DNA of 46,731 nt, from NCBI GenBank assembly GCA_024698585.1, contig JAILRB010000018.1:1-46731 (forward strand). Reading direction: 5' to 3'. Positions within the stretch are counted from its first letter, which is position 1; each line of letters starts with the position of its first letter. The notes beneath the pieces are model-generated. The model was not told where the DNA came from and did not search any database. It was given only the letters and a program-made list of their open reading frames with translations. Positions 7,583 through 16,106 of the stretch are shown one piece after another. A program made the position numbers and the translations under genes. This DNA comes from Eubacterium sp. Lineage in GTDB: Bacteria > Bacillota > Clostridia > Lachnospirales > Lachnospiraceae.

Positions 7583-7630
7583 ATGTTATAGTGTGGCCAA
7601 CTGCTACGATTATGATAAGTGAGAATTAGA

Positions 7631-8623
7631 ATGGGAAAGAAAAGTAGGAAAAATAAAAAACGTAATAAGCAGGAACACAACGTTAAAAGAGTAGTTGCAC
7701 AGAGAACGCATACACCGGAAGAAACAGAGCCGGAGCAGGCGGTTGATATGCCAGAGGTTTCGCAGGAAGAACAGGAGCCGGTCATTGATCTGGTGGAAGT
7801 GACACCGGGAGCTGAGAGCGACGCTCCGAAAAGGAAATATATTTTGTCGGACCGAATGTATAATGTTGTTCGCTTTGTGTGTCTGGCGTTAGCAGCCGGC
7901 GCATTGATTTATGCATCCTATCATCTGACGATTTCTTATCTGAATTATAAGGAAGATGAGAAGAAATATGCCAATATTGAAAATATGTTTGTGCAGGATG
8001 TGGAAGTAAAGCAGGTGGACAAAAATGGAAAGATTAGTTATTCCACAGAAAAGCAGTGGGTTTGGGATTATGACGCCATGCTGGAATATAACGATGAGGC
8101 AAAAGGATACATTAAATTAGATGGAACAAGGATTCAGTATCCGATTGTGGAACATTCAGACAATATTTTCTATCTGTGGCGTGGTGTTGATAAGGTAAAA
8201 AATGGGTCAGGTTCCATTTTTATTGATTACAGAACTGCAGGTCTGGATGGAAAGATGTGTATTCTGTATGGACACAATATGTTGGACGGATCCATGTTTC
8301 AGGATATTATGGATTTCCGAAACAAAGAGTTTTGCAAGAAGCATCAGGTCTTTGATGTTTATATAGGATACAAGCATTATCTGTACTATGTATTCTCGAC
8401 TTTTTCCGCAAAGGATACGGACGAAAACGTCTATGAGTTCGGATTTGAAAGTGATTCAGATTTTAAGGAATGGATTGACCGTGTCGCGTCAAAAAGTTCC
8501 TATTCCTTTGGATATGGGAAGCCGGGAATTTCGGACAAGGTAATTATGTGTTCTACCTGTGTGGATGATTATGGAAACCGTCAATTAGTCTGTATGTATC
8601 GTGGTGAGGAAGTAGCTGACTAA
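7631..8623 (+). CDS. srtB: Class B sortase
   Basis: 330 residues from the ATG at 7631; a GTG 12 bases upstream is in frame but lacks a ribosome binding site, whereas AAGTGAG precedes this ATG. A lysine-rich cytoplasmic start and an acidic stretch are followed by one membrane anchor (about residues 77-102, FVCLALAAGALIYASYHLTI) and an extracellular catalytic domain. The catalytic set is H215 (LYGHNM), C310 (CSTC) and R317 (NRQLV). The enzyme cuts a sorting motif between Thr and Gly and links proteins to peptidoglycan. C. difficile SrtB recognises (S/P)PxTG motifs; the large wall protein 3 kb downstream ends in SPKTG, so it is a likely substrate (inference). No pilin cluster is visible. Confidence 0.92.
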   Translation: MGKKSRKNKKRNKQEHNVKRVVAQRTHTPEETEPEQAVDMPEVSQEEQEPVIDLVEVTPGAESDAPKRKYILSDRMYNVVRFVCLALAAGALIYASYHLTISYLNYKEDEKKYANIENMFVQDVEVKQVDKNGKISYSTEKQWVWDYDAMLEYNDEAKGYIKLDGTRIQYPIVEHSDNIFYLWRGVDKVKNGSGSIFIDYRTAGLDGKMCILYGHNMLDGSMFQDIMDFRNKEFCKKHQVFDVYIGYKHYLYYVFSTFSAKDTDENVYEFGFESDSDFKEWIDRVASKSSYSFGYGKPGISDKVIMCSTCVDDYGNRQLVCMYRGEEVAD

Positions 8624-9994: not shown

Positions 9995-10519
9995 ATGGAA
10001 CAGAAAAATCCAATTGTAACAATTGAAATGGAAAACGGAGATGTAATGAAGGCAGAATTATATCCTGAAATTGCACCAAACACAGTAAATAACTTTATCA
10101 GCCTTGTAAAGAAAGGCTTCTACGATGGAATTATTTTCCACCGTGTTATCAGAGGATTTATGATTCAGGGTGGTGATCCTCAGGGCGTAGGAATCGGTGG
10201 ACCTGGATATTCTATTAAAGGAGAATTCTCAGGAAATGGATTTGCAAACAATCTTGCACATACAGAAGGGGTACTCTCTATGGCTCGTAGTATGATGCCG
10301 GATTCCGCAGGATCACAGTTTTTCATTATGCATCAGACTTCGCCACATTTAGATGGTCAGTATGCAGCTTTTGGTAAAGTCATTGAAGGAATGGATGTAG
10401 TAAATAAAATCGCTGAAGTAAGAACAGACTATCAGGACAAGCCACTGGAAGAACAGAAGATGAAGAAAGTTACAGTGGAAACTTTTGGAGTGGAATATCC
10501 AGAACCAGAAACAGTGTAA
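9995..10519 (+). CDS. ppiB: Peptidyl-prolyl cis-trans isomerase, cyclophilin type
   Basis: 174 residues, cytoplasmic (no signal peptide). It catalyses cis-trans isomerisation at proline bonds and assists folding. Cyclophilin motifs are clear: NTVNNFISLVKKGFYDG, IFHRVIRGFMIQGGDP with the catalytic arginine, the LSMAR...AGSQFFIM block and HLDGQYAAFGKVIEGMDVV. The loop GPGYSIKGEF...NNLAHTEG is the common bacterial form. The gene is monocistronic. No ordinary terminator follows; instead a large structured element begins 8 bp after the stop and may end transcription. Confidence 0.95.
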   Translation: MEQKNPIVTIEMENGDVMKAELYPEIAPNTVNNFISLVKKGFYDGIIFHRVIRGFMIQGGDPQGVGIGGPGYSIKGEFSGNGFANNLAHTEGVLSMARSMMPDSAGSQFFIMHQTSPHLDGQYAAFGKVIEGMDVVNKIAEVRTDYQDKPLEEQKMKKVTVETFGVEYPEPETV

Positions 10520-10526
10520 GTGTTGT

Positions 10527-10784
10527 TGCGATAAGGCATATATAGTTATAAGATTATTTTCTATAAATACTCAACAAGCACGAAGGTTTATTTCTTCAAA
10601 AGAAAAAATGATTTGCCCGTGTCAATTCACGTGTTTTTTGATAAAAACACGCTCAGTGACACTAAATTTCGAGGAATTGTAATCCTCGAAATTTGACTAC
10701 ATCATTTTTCCTTTTTTCAGAAACCTTTGTGCTTGTTTCAATATTTATAGAAAATAGCTCCATAACTGTATGTGCTTTTTCGCA
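10527..10784 (+). ncRNA. Large structured element, copy 1 (unrecognised RNA family)
   Basis: A 258-bp element folding into nested helices. Outer: TGCG/CGCA ends and ATTTTCTATAAATA (10556-10569) with its complement 10742-10755. P1: 10575-10589 with 10721-10735. P2: 10602-10612 with 10701-10710 (one bulged A). P3: GTGTCA (10619-10624) with TGACAC (10657-10662). P4: CGTGTTTTT (10630-10638) with 10643-10651. P5: AAATTTCGAGGA (10664-10675) with 10683-10694. Linking segments TTGCCC, CAATTC and CTCAG are conserved with copy 2. There is no ORF with a ribosome binding site. I do not recognise the family. It could be a structured RNA, a mobile RNA-like element, or both. Strand is assigned so that the two copies read alike. 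Confidence 0.7.
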
Positions 10785-10857
10785 AAATAGTTACGTTGTT
10801 TCCTCGTACTGTTTGAGAAAATAATAATCTACAGATGTTCTGTATTTTCGACCCTCA
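10785..10857. other. Spacer between the two structured elements
   Basis: 73 bp of AT-rich sequence between the 3' sides of the two converging copies. No gene or clear signal is seen. Confidence 0.6.
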
Positions 10858-11083
10858 TAACGCTCAGTTGTTTTTTTAGAACATTGAAGCAGGGGCGAAG
10901 GTTTCTAAAAAAAGAATTTTGGAGGCAGTCAAAAATCGCGGAACACCAGTCCGCGATTTTTAGTGTCACTGAGGGTGTTTTCATCAGGAAAACACACGAA
11001 TTGACACGGGCAAGTCCAAAATTCTTTTGAAGTATAAAACCTTCAGCCCCTGCTGAGTGTTCTAAAAAAATAACTGAGAGTTA
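10858..11083 (-). ncRNA. Large structured element, copy 2 (inverted relative to copy 1)
   Basis: A 226-bp element on the opposite strand. In plus coordinates its helices are: outer CTCAGTTG...AGAAC (10863-10882) with 11059-11078; P1 AGCAGGGGCGAAGGTTT (10888-10904) with 11037-11054; P2 AGAATTTTGGA (10913-10923) with 11015-11025; P5 AAAAATCGCGGA (10931-10942) with 10950-10961, with a 7-base loop as in copy 1; P3 10963-10968 with 11002-11007; P4 GTGTTTT (10975-10981) with 10989-10995. Helix sequences differ from copy 1 yet still pair, while TTGCCCGTGTCAATTC and CTCAGTGACACTAAA are identical. This pattern indicates selection for structure. Confidence 0.7.
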
Positions 11084-11092
11084 ATTTTAGTG

Positions 11093-11150: not shown

Positions 11151-11366
11151 ATGGCAAAGCAGATTACTAAGGATATGATTATTGCTGATATCTTGCAGAT
11201 AAATATGGGATGCGTTCCGATTTTATTAAATGAAGGAATGCACTGCATCGGATGCCCTGCATCACAGGGAGAGTCTTTAGAAGAGGCTTGTATGGTTCAC
11301 GGAATTGATGTGGAACCATTGGTTGAAAAGCTGAATGAGTTTCTTAAGAATGTTGAAACAGAATAA
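11151..11366 (+). CDS. DUF1858 domain protein (redox-disulfide type)
   Basis: 71 residues, the whole protein being one DUF1858 domain. It shows TKDMIIADILQINMGCVPILLNEGMHCIGCPASQGESLEEACMVHGID split over two helices, with cysteines in CIGCP and EACMVHG. Small proteins of this type are annotated as hybrid-cluster-protein-associated or disulfide-redox domains; the biochemical role is not established, and no hybrid cluster protein gene is adjacent. AGGAGG lies 7 bases before the ATG, and a terminator follows, so it is a single-gene unit. Confidence 0.85.
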   Translation: MAKQITKDMIIADILQINMGCVPILLNEGMHCIGCPASQGESLEEACMVHGIDVEPLVEKLNEFLKNVETE

Positions 11367-11582: not shown

Positions 11583-14500
11583 ATGAAAAAAATTATTTCG
11601 TATTTATTGGTTGCCGTTATGGTAATAAGCGGCTTCGGCGCCTATCTTCAGTTGGGAAGAGGAAAAGAAAATCAGATTGGGGCTGCCCAGCAGCAGCAGA
11701 TGAAGATGCCGATTGTCATTTATGATCATTTAAATGACACATTACTATTTGAATACTTGAATACAGATACTAGTTTTGGCTTAAGTATGTATGTAGATAC
11801 TCCGGCAGGAGAGGGAAATGCCAATAGTGGAAAAAATCTGGTGGAAGATGAATTGGGACCAAACGGAACACCGGTTTACAAGAAAGAAGTTGTGGAACGT
11901 GTGGCTCAGATTGTAAAGGACACGGTTGAGCAGGTTCGCACAGACACAAATTATAATTCCAGAACTGATGTATCTGATTTATATCGAAGAATAACAACGA
12001 TGGTTCTTAAAAACGAACCGCAGGAAACAAAAATTGAAGTAAATGGTACTCCAATTCCGGAACAAACATTGGAAGACATAGGTTGGAGCTTCCCAAAGGA
12101 AGCTTCCTCTAAGATTGAAAATAATAAAAATAACATTTATGACGCTTCCGATAATGTTATCTGGTATCAGGAAGGGGATCAGTTTCATGCTCCAAATGGT
12201 GGAGTAGATAATACAGCAACCCGTGATCTTGGGACTTTGAAACCGGGAACTTATCGCTTGTTTGCTTGGCAAAATAATAATCTGAATGTTTCAATTACCA
12301 CATCAAAAGGAACAGAGGATATTACACTTGCTAGGGAAGATGATCCGACTCAAACAGGGGCCGGACGTGATGGCTACGTTTATGAATTTACATTGGATTC
12401 TGCAGATGATGTTTCTGTAACTTTGCAGCCGAAAAATTCCAATGCCTCATCCATTATGCCATTCCTTCTTTTAGAAAAGAATGGGGAGACTTGGAAGTCA
12501 ACTGATTTAGTGAACAGAAATGGAAAAGTAAATGCGAAAAAACTTGGATGGGTTGTGGAAGAAGGTTCTTCCTGGTATGCATTTCCGGGTGGCGGAATCA
12601 GTTGTGAAGCTGAGGAAACAACAAAAGCTTACAAAGAAGTGGAAGTAACTCCGGGAGAAATCTATCGATTCCGTTGTGGAATGAATGATGGAGCAATCTG
12701 TAAAACCTGGTTAGAAGATGAAAACGGGAATAAATTAATTGAAAGCTTACCAACGTTTTATAACGAGAGCGGTACTGCAGTTGATGATAGAACAGCAACC
12801 ATTACCATTCCGGAGGGAATGACAAAGGTTCGTGTATATGTTCAGAATGATACCACAAAGACGGGAACACGTCGTGTGGGTGAAATCTACATGAAACAGA
12901 TGGCAGAAGCAAGACTCGGAAACTATGAAGATTCCAAGGCAAAATATGATGGCGGTGCAAAGCTTGAGGATATTACAACCTGTATGGATTACGCATACTA
13001 TTTCCTGAATAGTTTCTGGAGTGACACCAATGGTGACATTACACAGAAGACGAACTTGTATCAGACATTGACCATGGACTTAATGGCAAATTCTGATAAG
13101 TATCGTTTCTCCAATGGGCAGAAAATTAACTATGACTTAGATAATAAGAACATTTCTCAGGATTTAAGCACATCGGGTACGACAGGATTGTTCCCATTGG
13201 ATAGTGCGGTATTAGGAGACAGAAGTGATTTATCAGCACCATTTGGTGTGGCTGATGGAGAACTGACCGATGAAAAGCATAACTATCATTATGCGATGAA
13301 AGCACATTGTCAGTTTATTTATGATTCATCTTCTGATTTAATCTTTAATTTCTCCGGTGACGATGATGTATACTTATTCATCAACGGAAAGAAGGCAATG
13401 GATATCGGTGGTGCTCACGGTGCAGTGAACGGTTCTGCTGAATTAAATTACATTGCAAAATCCGACGATGCTTCAGAAATTGAACGTCAGAACAAGTCCA
13501 GACAGTTGGCACAGTCTTTAGGATTAGAAGACGGTCAGATTTATGACTTCGATTTCTTCTATTTAGAGAGACATACCTCATTAAGTAATATTACAATTGA
13601 AACCAATATGCCTTTAGTACAGGCAGGGGTAACACCGAAGGTAATCTTTAAGGATAAAGATGGCAATGAACTTGCTGATGGAACGAAGGTACAGGCCGGT
13701 GAAAAAGTAAATGTGGAATATGATGTAACAAGTACCACAAAGATTAATCCGAATGCACCAAACAAGTTAACCGGATTAGAAATCACTGATAATGAATTAG
13801 GTGTTCAGATTGGTTATTTTGGTAATAACTATCCAACATTAAATCTTGGAAACGCTGAAGTGGATGAGGCGATTACCGTGACTGTCAAAGGGGCAGACGG
13901 ACAGCCGAAGCAGACCTTCTCCATTGCAAAAGCAGATCTTTATAATGATGACAAGGTTCGAGAATTTGTTAGTGCGTTAAAGAATGTTCAGCTGGACAAT
14001 AAGGAATCTGTTACAGTTTCCGGAATTTCCCGAATTATGCCAGCAGATGAATTGCTGAAAACAGAATTAGACGTGAATGTGGTTGCTCCGGAACCATACT
14101 TTGATGATGGCGGACACATTCAGTTTAAGAATAGTGAAGTCGTAACAGTCCCGGTAGATGCAATGTTAATTCCGGTAAACAATCCGGATATCAAAGTGTC
14201 TGGTGTGTTAAAAGATAAAGACGGAAACGTATTGAACAAGGATGCCGAAGGAAAGTACAAGGATGAGTATCTTCCACAGGGAACAGAGATTTATCCGGTA
14301 TTTACAATTACAACCGATTCCGGCCAGATGCGTGACATTAAGTTAGATGATAGTCAGGGAACCGGATTTGTATTGGATAAAAATGGCGTTAGCGATCCGA
14401 ATGGATTCCTGGGTGAGAATGATATCTTGGTAGTTACCTATAAGCCGGCCGGTGGAGACGCAGTTACACTGAATGTTCCAAAGACAGATATTGATAATAA

Positions 14501-16106
14501 GAATGAAAGTTTTCTGATGCTTCGTGAAATGTTAAATGGAGGTATTTCATTAAACAAAGGAGATGAGTTAATCATTTCCGGACTTCATAAAGCATTGGCT
14601 ACTGATCCAATTAAAACAGTACCTAGTGCAACCGCAACCGGTCAGATTCCTTCTTACAATGAAGAAACAGGAGAATTATCGGTTGAAAATAAAACGGTGA
14701 CAGCGACTGATACAGAGAAAAAAGCAATCCCTACCGTTGAAGTAAAATTCCAGAATGGAGATCATGGAACTGTTACGGGAAGTAAAGAACAGACTGTTGT
14801 TTGCAAGAACAAAGTATCCAACGTTCCAACGAAGGATACTGCTGATGAAGGATATTCCTTTGTGGGATGGAAGATTGCCGGTGATAACAGCGGAAAGATT
14901 TATACATCTCAGGAAGTTGCAACTTTGGAAATTACGAAAGATACCACTTTTGTGGCTCAGTGGGAACTTGGAAAAGTTACCGTGGAATTTAAGGCTGGAA
15001 ACAATGGTTCCGTGACAGGAACTGCTACAGATAAGACACAGACCATTGATTATGGAACAAAGGTTTCTAACGTACCGGGTGTCAGTGAAGACACCGGATA
15101 TGATTTCGTAGGCTGGAAGAGAAAGAGCGACGGAAAGATTTATACCGAAGATGAAATTAAGAATATAGTATTCAAGGCTGATGAAGTTTTTGAAGCGGTA
15201 TTTGAAGCGAAAACAATGAAATATACAGTTCGTTATATTGATGAAAATGAACAGGATCTCATTGAGCCAAAGAAAGATCAGAAAGCAAAATACGGGACAG
15301 AAGTGACCGAAATGGCTGAGAAATTCCCTGCATATGATGTGGACAAGGATTCCCAGAAATTTACTATGACAGTCGATGGAACAGTCATTACATTCCAGTA
15401 CACATTGAAGCAGCTGAATGTGAAGTATGAAGCAGGTGACAATGGGGAATTAGACGGTGACGACAGCGAAACAGTTTCTTATGGAAACAAGCCGGACAAT
15501 GTTCCGACTCCAAGAGCGGCAGAAGGATATAAGTTTGCCGGATGGACAAAGAAAGTGACAGGCGGAGATTCTTCTGTAGAAGATCCTCGAAACGAAGAAA
15601 TTACAGAAGATACTGTTTTTGAGGCGGTCTTTGTTCCAATCAATTCTAACTACAAAGTAAAATACGTAGATGAAAACGGAAAAGAAATCTTTGCTACAAA
15701 GCAGGGAGAACAGACACAGGTTGGAAAGAATGTTACAGAACAGTATGTTCCGGTAGCAGGATACGAGCTGGTAAGTGAAAAAACAGTGACAAAGAAAATC
15801 TCTGAAGACGAATCAGAAAATGTGATTGTGTTTACTTATCGCAAGGTGGAAGAAACCACAGTCGTGAAGGAAGAACCAACAACGAAAAAACAAAAGAGCA
15901 AAAAAGACAAGAAAAACAGTAAGAAACAGACAGAAACAACACAGGAGGCAACAACTGCTGCGGGAACAGAAAAAACGGGTGTTTCCAATACCTCGTTAAT
16001 CTCTCCGAAAACCGGTTACGGAAAGCAGTTTACTGTAATCTTTATGATGTTATTGGCATCTGTGGTAATGTTTGGAATCTCATGGAAGAAAATGAGAGAA
16101 GAATAA
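11583..16106 (+). CDS. Large cell-wall-anchored fibro-slime/InlB-repeat/MucBP protein
   Basis: 1507 residues. It has a signal peptide (about 1-22), a long N-terminal region, a fibro-slime/PA14-like domain (about 480-665: FNFSGDDDVYLFINGK near 590-604 and YDFDFFYLERHTSLSNI near 650-667), then beta-rich modules. Next come three InlB/Flg_new repeats (about 1052-1130, 1130-1211, 1277-1354, each with a FxGW and ending FVAQWE or FEAVF) alternating with two MucBP-like repeats (about 1211-1277, 1355-1422: VRYIDENEQDL, VKYVDENGKEI). A Thr/Lys-rich wall-spanning stretch leads to SPKTG (1474-1478), a hydrophobic segment and a KKMREE tail. This is a complete sortase sorting signal of the (S/P)PxTG type. 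Role: adhesion or substrate binding at the surface (inference). Single-gene unit. Confidence 0.88.
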   Translation: MKKIISYLLVAVMVISGFGAYLQLGRGKENQIGAAQQQQMKMPIVIYDHLNDTLLFEYLNTDTSFGLSMYVDTPAGEGNANSGKNLVEDELGPNGTPVYKKEVVERVAQIVKDTVEQVRTDTNYNSRTDVSDLYRRITTMVLKNEPQETKIEVNGTPIPEQTLEDIGWSFPKEASSKIENNKNNIYDASDNVIWYQEGDQFHAPNGGVDNTATRDLGTLKPGTYRLFAWQNNNLNVSITTSKGTEDITLAREDDPTQTGAGRDGYVYEFTLDSADDVSVTLQPKNSNASSIMPFLLLEKNGETWKSTDLVNRNGKVNAKKLGWVVEEGSSWYAFPGGGISCEAEETTKAYKEVEVTPGEIYRFRCGMNDGAICKTWLEDENGNKLIESLPTFYNESGTAVDDRTATITIPEGMTKVRVYVQNDTTKTGTRRVGEIYMKQMAEARLGNYEDSKAKYDGGAKLEDITTCMDYAYYFLNSFWSDTNGDITQKTNLYQTLTMDLMANSDKYRFSNGQKINYDLDNKNISQDLSTSGTTGLFPLDSAVLGDRSDLSAPFGVADGELTDEKHNYHYAMKAHCQFIYDSSSDLIFNFSGDDDVYLFINGKKAMDIGGAHGAVNGSAELNYIAKSDDASEIERQNKSRQLAQSLGLEDGQIYDFDFFYLERHTSLSNITIETNMPLVQAGVTPKVIFKDKDGNELADGTKVQAGEKVNVEYDVTSTTKINPNAPNKLTGLEITDNELGVQIGYFGNNYPTLNLGNAEVDEAITVTVKGADGQPKQTFSIAKADLYNDDKVREFVSALKNVQLDNKESVTVSGISRIMPADELLKTELDVNVVAPEPYFDDGGHIQFKNSEVVTVPVDAMLIPVNNPDIKVSGVLKDKDGNVLNKDAEGKYKDEYLPQGTEIYPVFTITTDSGQMRDIKLDDSQGTGFVLDKNGVSDPNGFLGENDILVVTYKPAGGDAVTLNVPKTDIDNKNESFLMLREMLNGGISLNKGDELIISGLHKALATDPIKTVPSATATGQIPSYNEETGELSVENKTVTATDTEKKAIPTVEVKFQNGDHGTVTGSKEQTVVCKNKVSNVPTKDTADEGYSFVGWKIAGDNSGKIYTSQEVATLEITKDTTFVAQWELGKVTVEFKAGNNGSVTGTATDKTQTIDYGTKVSNVPGVSEDTGYDFVGWKRKSDGKIYTEDEIKNIVFKADEVFEAVFEAKTMKYTVRYIDENEQDLIEPKKDQKAKYGTEVTEMAEKFPAYDVDKDSQKFTMTVDGTVITFQYTLKQLNVKYEAGDNGELDGDDSETVSYGNKPDNVPTPRAAEGYKFAGWTKKVTGGDSSVEDPRNEEITEDTVFEAVFVPINSNYKVKYVDENGKEIFATKQGEQTQVGKNVTEQYVPVAGYELVSEKTVTKKISEDESENVIVFTYRKVEETTVVKEEPTTKKQKSKKDKKNSKKQTETTQEATTAAGTEKTGVSNTSLISPKTGYGKQFTVIFMMLLASVVMFGISWKKMREE

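Follow-up and report, generated by a model that had tools for sequence, protein, structure and literature searches.

Repetitive extragenic palindromic (REP) repeats are palindromes of 20–40 bp that are dispersed in extragenic DNA, often as inverted pairs, and that carry a GTAG or a CGTC tag (PMC3733652 and PMC2817692, accessible parts). According to the accessible text of PMC3733652 they are located between convergent or co-directional genes, and in the two species detailed there most REPs of convergent genes lie at most 20 bp from gene 3′ ends; the same text describes CGTC-tagged families without a known dedicated transposase, and TnpA-REP enzymes work on folded single-stranded REPs (PMC8266576, accessible part). 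Here we describe a 46,731-nt stretch of Eubacterium sp. DNA (Lachnospiraceae; contig JAILRB010000018.1 of assembly GCA_024698585.1, hereafter the window, at its full length), in which ppiB (9995–10519) and a DUF1858 gene (11151–11366) bound an intergenic space containing two inverted-repeat elements, giant hairpins A and B. Together with their spacer these hairpins probably represent one copy of a non-autonomous family of Lachnospiraceae mobile DNA, defined by a giant three-way-junction hairpin and kept as DNA. The family is a relative of the palindromic mobile-repeat kind, being REP/BIME-like in behaviour (BIME, bacterial interspersed mosaic element).

Like REPs, BIMEs and REPINs (REP doublets forming hairpins), the giant hairpins are multi-copy, extragenic, placed at gene 3′ ends and found in inverted pairs. 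Several copies have a GGGGACG-like foot, the complement of which contains CGTC and which may correspond to the REP tag; the window copy is without this foot. They differ in their size (149–481 nt, about ten times larger), in their three-way junction and internal covarying core, and in that no linkage to a REP-associated tyrosine transposase (RAYT, of the Y1 type) was found, CGTC REPs likewise being without one in the accessible text of PMC3733652. With miniature inverted-repeat transposable elements they share short, geneless, multi-copy units; imperfect terminal inverted repeats (TIRs) in two genomes (G057 and G374) and a short putative target repeat in the window are at most partial resemblances. 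Unlike in these elements, no common TIR was seen in the genera compared, no cognate transposase was found, and the interior is conserved rather than the ends. Integron attC sites have a conserved structure and a free sequence, and act as folded single-stranded DNA. The giant hairpins, too, conserve structure over sequence, and those of genome G318 are cassettes between palindromic sites of ~24–28 bp, but no cassette genes or integrase were seen in the hairpin-bearing stretches read, size and core are unlike, and the comparison is an analogy only. The large RNAs of Rfam (HEARO, ROOL, GOLLD, raiA and Clostridiales motifs) are similar in size and apparent complexity, whereas the giant hairpins gave no gathering-score match and lack the wobble signature of RNA. 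None of the structured single-stranded DNA motifs in the accessible parts of PMC8632094 and PMC2864571 match the giant hairpins, words beginning with "clostridi" or "lachno" are absent from the main text of PMC3733652, and no description was found among the matches listed in the open-access literature, subscription papers being outside its scope. The family is apparently undescribed.

The features of the locus are given below, with minimum free energies (MFE) and z scores of folding and with the scores of two covariance models, R1, built from the window's two copies, and R2, a second model.

10517–10519, plus strand: left TAA, the ppiB stop codon and left copy of a putative 3-bp target duplication (junction comparison with the relative G008)
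10520–11081, no strand: inserted mobile unit of 562 bp, hairpin A, spacer and hairpin B (missing from G008, flanks intact)
10527–10790, plus strand: giant hairpin A, with outer stem, inner stem and three-way junction (MFE −108.7 kcal/mol, z −14.2)
10570–10742, plus strand: conserved core of A, covariance-model match (R1 200.5 bits, R2 157.1 bits; R1 built from this core)
10619–10662, plus strand: arm 1 of A, with GTGTCA stem, unpaired ATTC, inner hairpin, unpaired CTCAG and TGACAC
10664–10694, plus strand: arm 2 of A, a perfect 12-bp stem with 7-nt loop (inverted repeat I13)
10791–10857, no strand: spacer between hairpins A and B (open reading frame (ORF) and promoter scans)
10858–11083, minus strand: giant hairpin B, convergent to A, its foot overlapping the right TAA (MFE −104.1 kcal/mol, z −12.8)
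10883–11056, minus strand: conserved core of B, covariance-model match (R1 204.5 bits, R2 163.2 bits; R1 built from this core)
10931–10961, minus strand: arm 2 of B, a perfect 12-bp stem with 7-nt loop, its sequence unlike that of A (inverted repeat I14)
11082–11084, plus strand: right TAA, right copy of the putative 3-bp target duplication (junction comparison with G008)

An earlier note on this DNA had placed two elements of ~230–260 bp on opposite strands in a 631-bp gap; the gap indeed runs from the ppiB stop at 10519 to the DUF1858 start at 11151, and all arms and loops quoted are found in the window sequence. Close relative G008 presents the corresponding empty site: with ppiB 99.4% and DUF1858 100% identical, its two genes stand 66 bp apart after the stop, the unit is absent, and the locus gives no covariance-model match. 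The junction reads AACAGTG-TAA-unit-TAA-TTTTAGTG in the window and AACACTG-TAA-TTTTAGTG in G008, from which it follows that both hairpins and the spacer arrived jointly, the insertion adding 562 bp and a second TAA. The hairpin copies thus are one inserted mobile unit, gained in the lineage of the window genome. Ten more relatives with ppiB beside DUF1858 have 18–113 bp between the genes and no unit, while at nine other DUF1858 loci ppiB was not found alongside. No TIRs are evident at the window unit, and a palindromic site of the G318 type was looked for at its ends and not found.

Mobility is also apparent in other genomes. In G057 a unit of ~480 bp with imperfect TIRs occupies four sites of a single contig at 89–97% identity, and in G374, where the TIRs are also imperfect, three of the five copies compared are 96.8–97.9% identical over ~675 bp. 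The six G318 copies are 96.0–98.3% identical in 11 of 15 comparisons, which span ~345–353 bp, the remaining four extending into flanking repeats at 86–92%. Seven G374 sites (s1–s7) were then compared with the related genome G058. Both flanks align at s1 and s7, where the unit is missing from G058; at s4 and s5 it is likewise missing after the gene in G058, an ordinary terminator-like hairpin standing in its place at s4 (where the far side is unalignable) and a different hairpin-bearing sequence at s5. At s2 G058 retains only the two ends of the unit, enclosing a small perfect hairpin (L285, about 1915–1990), and at s3 the unit is present with hairpin B kept and the apex of hairpin A lost (L277, about 2020–2040); to judge from their sequences, both are probably what deletion has left of giant hairpins. 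At s6 the hairpin detected in G058 (L269) is oriented opposite to that of G374, reflecting either inversion in place or independent insertion.

Placement of the hairpins relative to genes invites a different explanation, in which they are host-beneficial gene-end structures (terminators, protectors of mRNA 3′ ends or insulators of convergent genes), selected in place and rarely mobile. In 67 of 114 copies the stop codon of a sense ORF (100 aa or longer) falls between −20 and +60 nt of the hairpin 5′ foot (5 of 119 hairpins, too near the locus end, were excluded), whereas the other foot has an antisense stop in 8 of 114, and positions drawn at random from these loci score 175 of 2280; the ORF caller is crude and blind to genes under 100 aa, so that 67 may be an underestimate. 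Besides this orientation-specific placement, the host-benefit account draws on one convergent pair that seven Lacrimispora-like loci share at a single site, on Lacrimispora paired columns varying less than unpaired ones (53 of 520 against 89 of 255, some flank pairs included), and on the ordinary terminator-like hairpin found at s4. It has to contend with the relatives that have no unit at the window's site, with a window unit that separates two co-directional genes, 66 bp apart in G008, with the reversed s6 hairpin and the lost s3 apex in G058, with the missing wobble signature of RNA, and with a single, weak terminator-like match in the window unit (11056–11043, minus strand; shuffles 0.4). 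We regard it as unlikely.

In the window, none of 200 shuffles reaches the native folding energy of hairpin A or B. The complement strand folds about as well as the motif strand for copy 1 and better for copy 2, and folding therefore leaves the strand undecided. Within the 174-column aligned core, both bases of 11 of 53 consensus pairs differ between the copies while each copy still pairs there, which bears out the compensatory changes reported in the earlier note; one of these 11 is a loop-closing pair. The blocks that the note took for single-stranded are present, but several are partly helical, GTGTCA pairing with TGACAC. Conservation within the family is highest in arm 1 (ATTCG, CTGATGA, CTCAG), the inner-hairpin loop of which reads TTGAT in hairpin A and TGATGA in most family copies. 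Family-wide, a single base occupies at least 75% of copies in 19 of 66 unpaired columns and in 6 of 106 paired columns, the conserved stretches again being ATTCG, CTGATGA and CTCAG. Pairing is retained in 94.9% of cells across 126 aligned copies as compared to 49.9% after shuffling, with a covariation score of 1.03 as against 0.21 shuffled and 0.12–0.17 for slid structures.

RNA helices tolerate G–U pairs but not A–C pairs, and the two can be counted to ask in which form a fold is kept. Among 5938 cells of 125 aligned copies, excluding two pairs that close loops and two at the junction, we counted 75 G–U and 89 A–C (match L212:509, the reverse of another match, was omitted here and kept in the pairing and covariation scores); including the junction pairs gives 135 G–U and 94 A–C. 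RNase P RNAs from the same bacterial family (n = 27, three of 30 loci, L305, L316 and L321, having been dropped as cut) contain 295 G–U and 8 A–C. In all 27 RNase P RNAs the sense strand folds more stably than its complement, whereas the motif strand does so in 13 of 43 hairpins (5 of 48 sequences, too near the locus end, were dropped). Pairing is thus strongly conserved across genera with G–U not above A–C, without the G–U signature of RNA, which argues that the fold is maintained as DNA; as judged from these sequence comparisons, it is apparently kept as DNA and not as RNA. Of the selection on RNA or single-stranded DNA proposed in the earlier note, the conserved covarying structure stands, while an RNA class does not agree with 75 against 89 where RNase P gives 295 against 8. 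The note's failure to match a known family is borne out by Rfam, which returned nothing at gathering score for the window and 11 homologous loci; 12 sub-threshold matches by E-value, mostly to microRNA precursors, are long generic hairpins far below gathering scores and were rejected.

A new class of structured non-coding RNA, for instance in a 3′ untranslated region or as a stand-alone RNA, is accordingly strongly disfavoured, and we hold it to be very improbable. Strong covariation and conserved unpaired motifs are what such a class would display, and the sense orientation after stop codons means that read-through would transcribe the hairpin. On the complement strand G–U is slightly above A–C (145 against 82 in a de novo consensus fold), and Lacrimispora copies have 12 A–C and no G–U on the motif strand, which would favour the complement strand, although the overall total is without such bias. 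The de novo folds lean slightly to the complement, yet remain far from the RNA pattern. In addition to the pair counts, the strand stabilities and the Rfam result, the RNA class is made less likely by window hairpin B being antisense to both flanking genes, and by the promoter scan: two promoter-like matches were found, a number not above shuffles, both outside the unit and none within the spacer 10791–10857. The only ORFs of at least 50 aa touching the unit are a 65-aa frame starting inside ppiB and a 51-aa minus-strand frame, both over hairpins.

Covariation of this kind could also arise by mutation alone, if template switching during replication copies one arm of a palindrome onto the other, producing compensatory changes without structural selection. 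The absence of strand bias is consistent with this process, as are the outer arms of 30–60 bp, which by eye are wholly different yet still complementary between same-genome copies (the outer stems vary in this manner in G048, G236 and G170), and the small-hairpin remnant at s2 and lost apex at s3 in G058, which fit palindrome deletion. In seven Lacrimispora-like copies of one site, however, from loci 91–97% identical, differences in the hairpin are mostly one-sided and only 1 of 26 variable pairs changes solely by full swap, which speaks against rapid correction, and both the architecture of the core and the unpaired motifs are retained in different genera, with matches in 24 of 334. Template switching as the sole cause therefore seems doubtful to us; whether upkeep of the DNA fold reflects selection for recognition or arm-to-arm copying is less clear.

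The family was delineated with both covariance models. In the family-genome scans, where at most seven candidates per genome were scored and copy numbers are minima, R1 matched 7 of 397 genomes of the window's bacterial family (Lachnospiraceae, to judge from the named records), the window's own included and the other six with at least 2 to 7 copies, and in 23 genomes of the window's genus it found no match beyond the window's own. R2 matched 28 of 397 genomes in 24 of 334 genera, one further genome of the window's genus included, so that the covariance search of Lachnospiraceae suggested in the earlier note did yield many homologues; among 299 genomes drawn from the phylum at large R2 matched the window's own genome alone. 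Fuller scoring of 12 genomes picked for having matches gave 1 to 53 copies each. The pattern GTTTTC-TGATGAAAAC-CTCAG retrieved 70 stretches in named genomes (Lacrimispora, Faecalicatena faecalis, Hungatella- and Hespellia-named and rumen Lachnospiraceae records, and a few with other titles), several of them close to contig ends, as expected for repeats. R2 confirms the element in 69; the exception, a Lentisphaerae record (L075), was rejected as a chance pattern match. Three loci titled Paenibacillaceae (SIG286–288; L052, L060 and L062) are about 95–97% identical over 6–8 kb to Lacrimispora locus L045, and by this likeness their titles are probably wrong. A first sequence pattern run on genome contigs gave no matches. 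At the sensitivity used, no homologues were found in phages, plasmids or viral contigs: a search of plasmids and phages with hairpin A and a search of viral contigs with the above pattern returned nothing, seven stretches of viral contigs sharing an exact 16-mer were judged from their sequence to be chance, and one viral locus that resembled the element (L012) was rejected, its contig carrying what look like phage structural genes.

Full hairpins measure 301 nt in the median of 119 copies (range 149–481; three loci of the same Lacrimispora site, L110, L065 and L057, were left out of the length and placement set), and the strongest folded region, in L088, measures about 480 nt at −355.6 kcal/mol. 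Inside the outer stem lies a further stem and then the three-way junction with its two arms. Of 28 pairs of neighbouring hairpins no more than 1.5 kb apart, 25 are convergent and none is divergent (22 of 25 convergent when the four orthologous pairs supplied by Lacrimispora are counted once), a convergent pair making a unit of ~480–700 bp; single hairpins are also found. By eye, the GGGGACG-like foot is present in many G048 and G236 copies and some from Lacrimispora, and not in the window, G318 or G374. The palindromic sites that enclose the G318 hairpins are TTTCATAAAGTATAGTTTATGAAA-like, some of them degenerate, and presumably resemble the Xer/dif layout; in locus L143 two hairpin cassettes and three such sites stand in tandem. 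Tandem repeats of 52 or 65 bp adjoin some G318 hairpins. In L140 and L144 65-bp repeats lie between further palindromic TTTCATAAAGTATAGTTTATGAAA-like sites, and at L020 1800–2156 52-bp repeats with inverted ends TTACGTAC / GTACGTAA adjoin a hairpin. The outermost arms of rumen-genome locus L064 read GGACGGTTCCATTTGACACATTT ... AATGTGTCAAAAGGAACCGTCCCC, those of L080 being nearly alike; from its sequence, this outer palindrome may be a separate repeat in which the hairpin is nested.

As a mechanism for the mobile DNA family, an enzyme supplied in trans would recognise the folded DNA through its unpaired motifs ATTC, TGATGA and CTCAG, either as a single strand at replication or as an extruded cruciform, and the unit would be inserted at gene ends, where it would do little harm, in a mode of spread resembling that proposed for REP/BIME repeats. 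Mobilisation by a RAYT is unsupported, the elements not being linked to the 30 Y1_Tnp loci examined, and the one locus inspected for an autonomous copy with a gene between the hairpins (L096, gap 915 bp) has no convincing ORF. The lack of Y1 linkage, and the copy-rich G318 and G170 without Y1_Tnp, suggest that the mobiliser may be of another type. We tentatively put forward, with more doubt than confidence, that the "terminal repeat" of the family is a shape, namely a giant DNA hairpin with a three-way junction, and that it is read and inserted at stop codons by an enzyme not of the Y1 type; a Xer-like tyrosine recombinase is a candidate because the G318 hairpins are ~320 bp cassettes between palindromic 11-6-11-like sites, standing in tandem. 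If so, this would be a cassette system with structure as cargo in place of genes.

Several observations weigh against a mobile family kept as DNA. No model match lies within ~1.5 kb of 30 Y1_Tnp loci (30 of 48 matches), and 4 of 18 genomes searched, G022, G254, G318 and G170, with 1, 4, 20 and 19 copies respectively, have no Y1_Tnp. Unit ends vary by genus, from imperfect TIRs in G057 and G374 to palindromic sites in G318 and none evident in the window, and the TAA repeat is short and based on one site. The orientation-specific placement on the stop side is equally expected of a host 3′-end function. The two omitted junction pairs contain 60 of the 135 G–U cells, and the de novo folds, at a G–U:A–C of 99:113 on the motif strand, have the complement-strand excess given above. 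Finally, the mostly one-sided Lacrimispora changes indicate that not all resident copies strictly retain the fold.

Covariation is often taken as proof of RNA, and very strong covariation without wobble here marks structured mobile DNA; the G–U versus A–C count is a cheap test that others can use. Cultured carriers (Lacrimispora xylanisolvens and Faecalicatena faecalis) make mobility, cruciform formation and gene-end effects directly testable. Downstream of the DUF1858 gene, the window encodes a 1507-aa surface protein (11583–16106) with PA14 and InlB/List_Bact repeat domains (Pfam), the C-terminus of which, SPKTG plus a membrane tail, was read by eye as a sortase signal, and a sortase-domain protein (Pfam) is encoded at 7619–8623.
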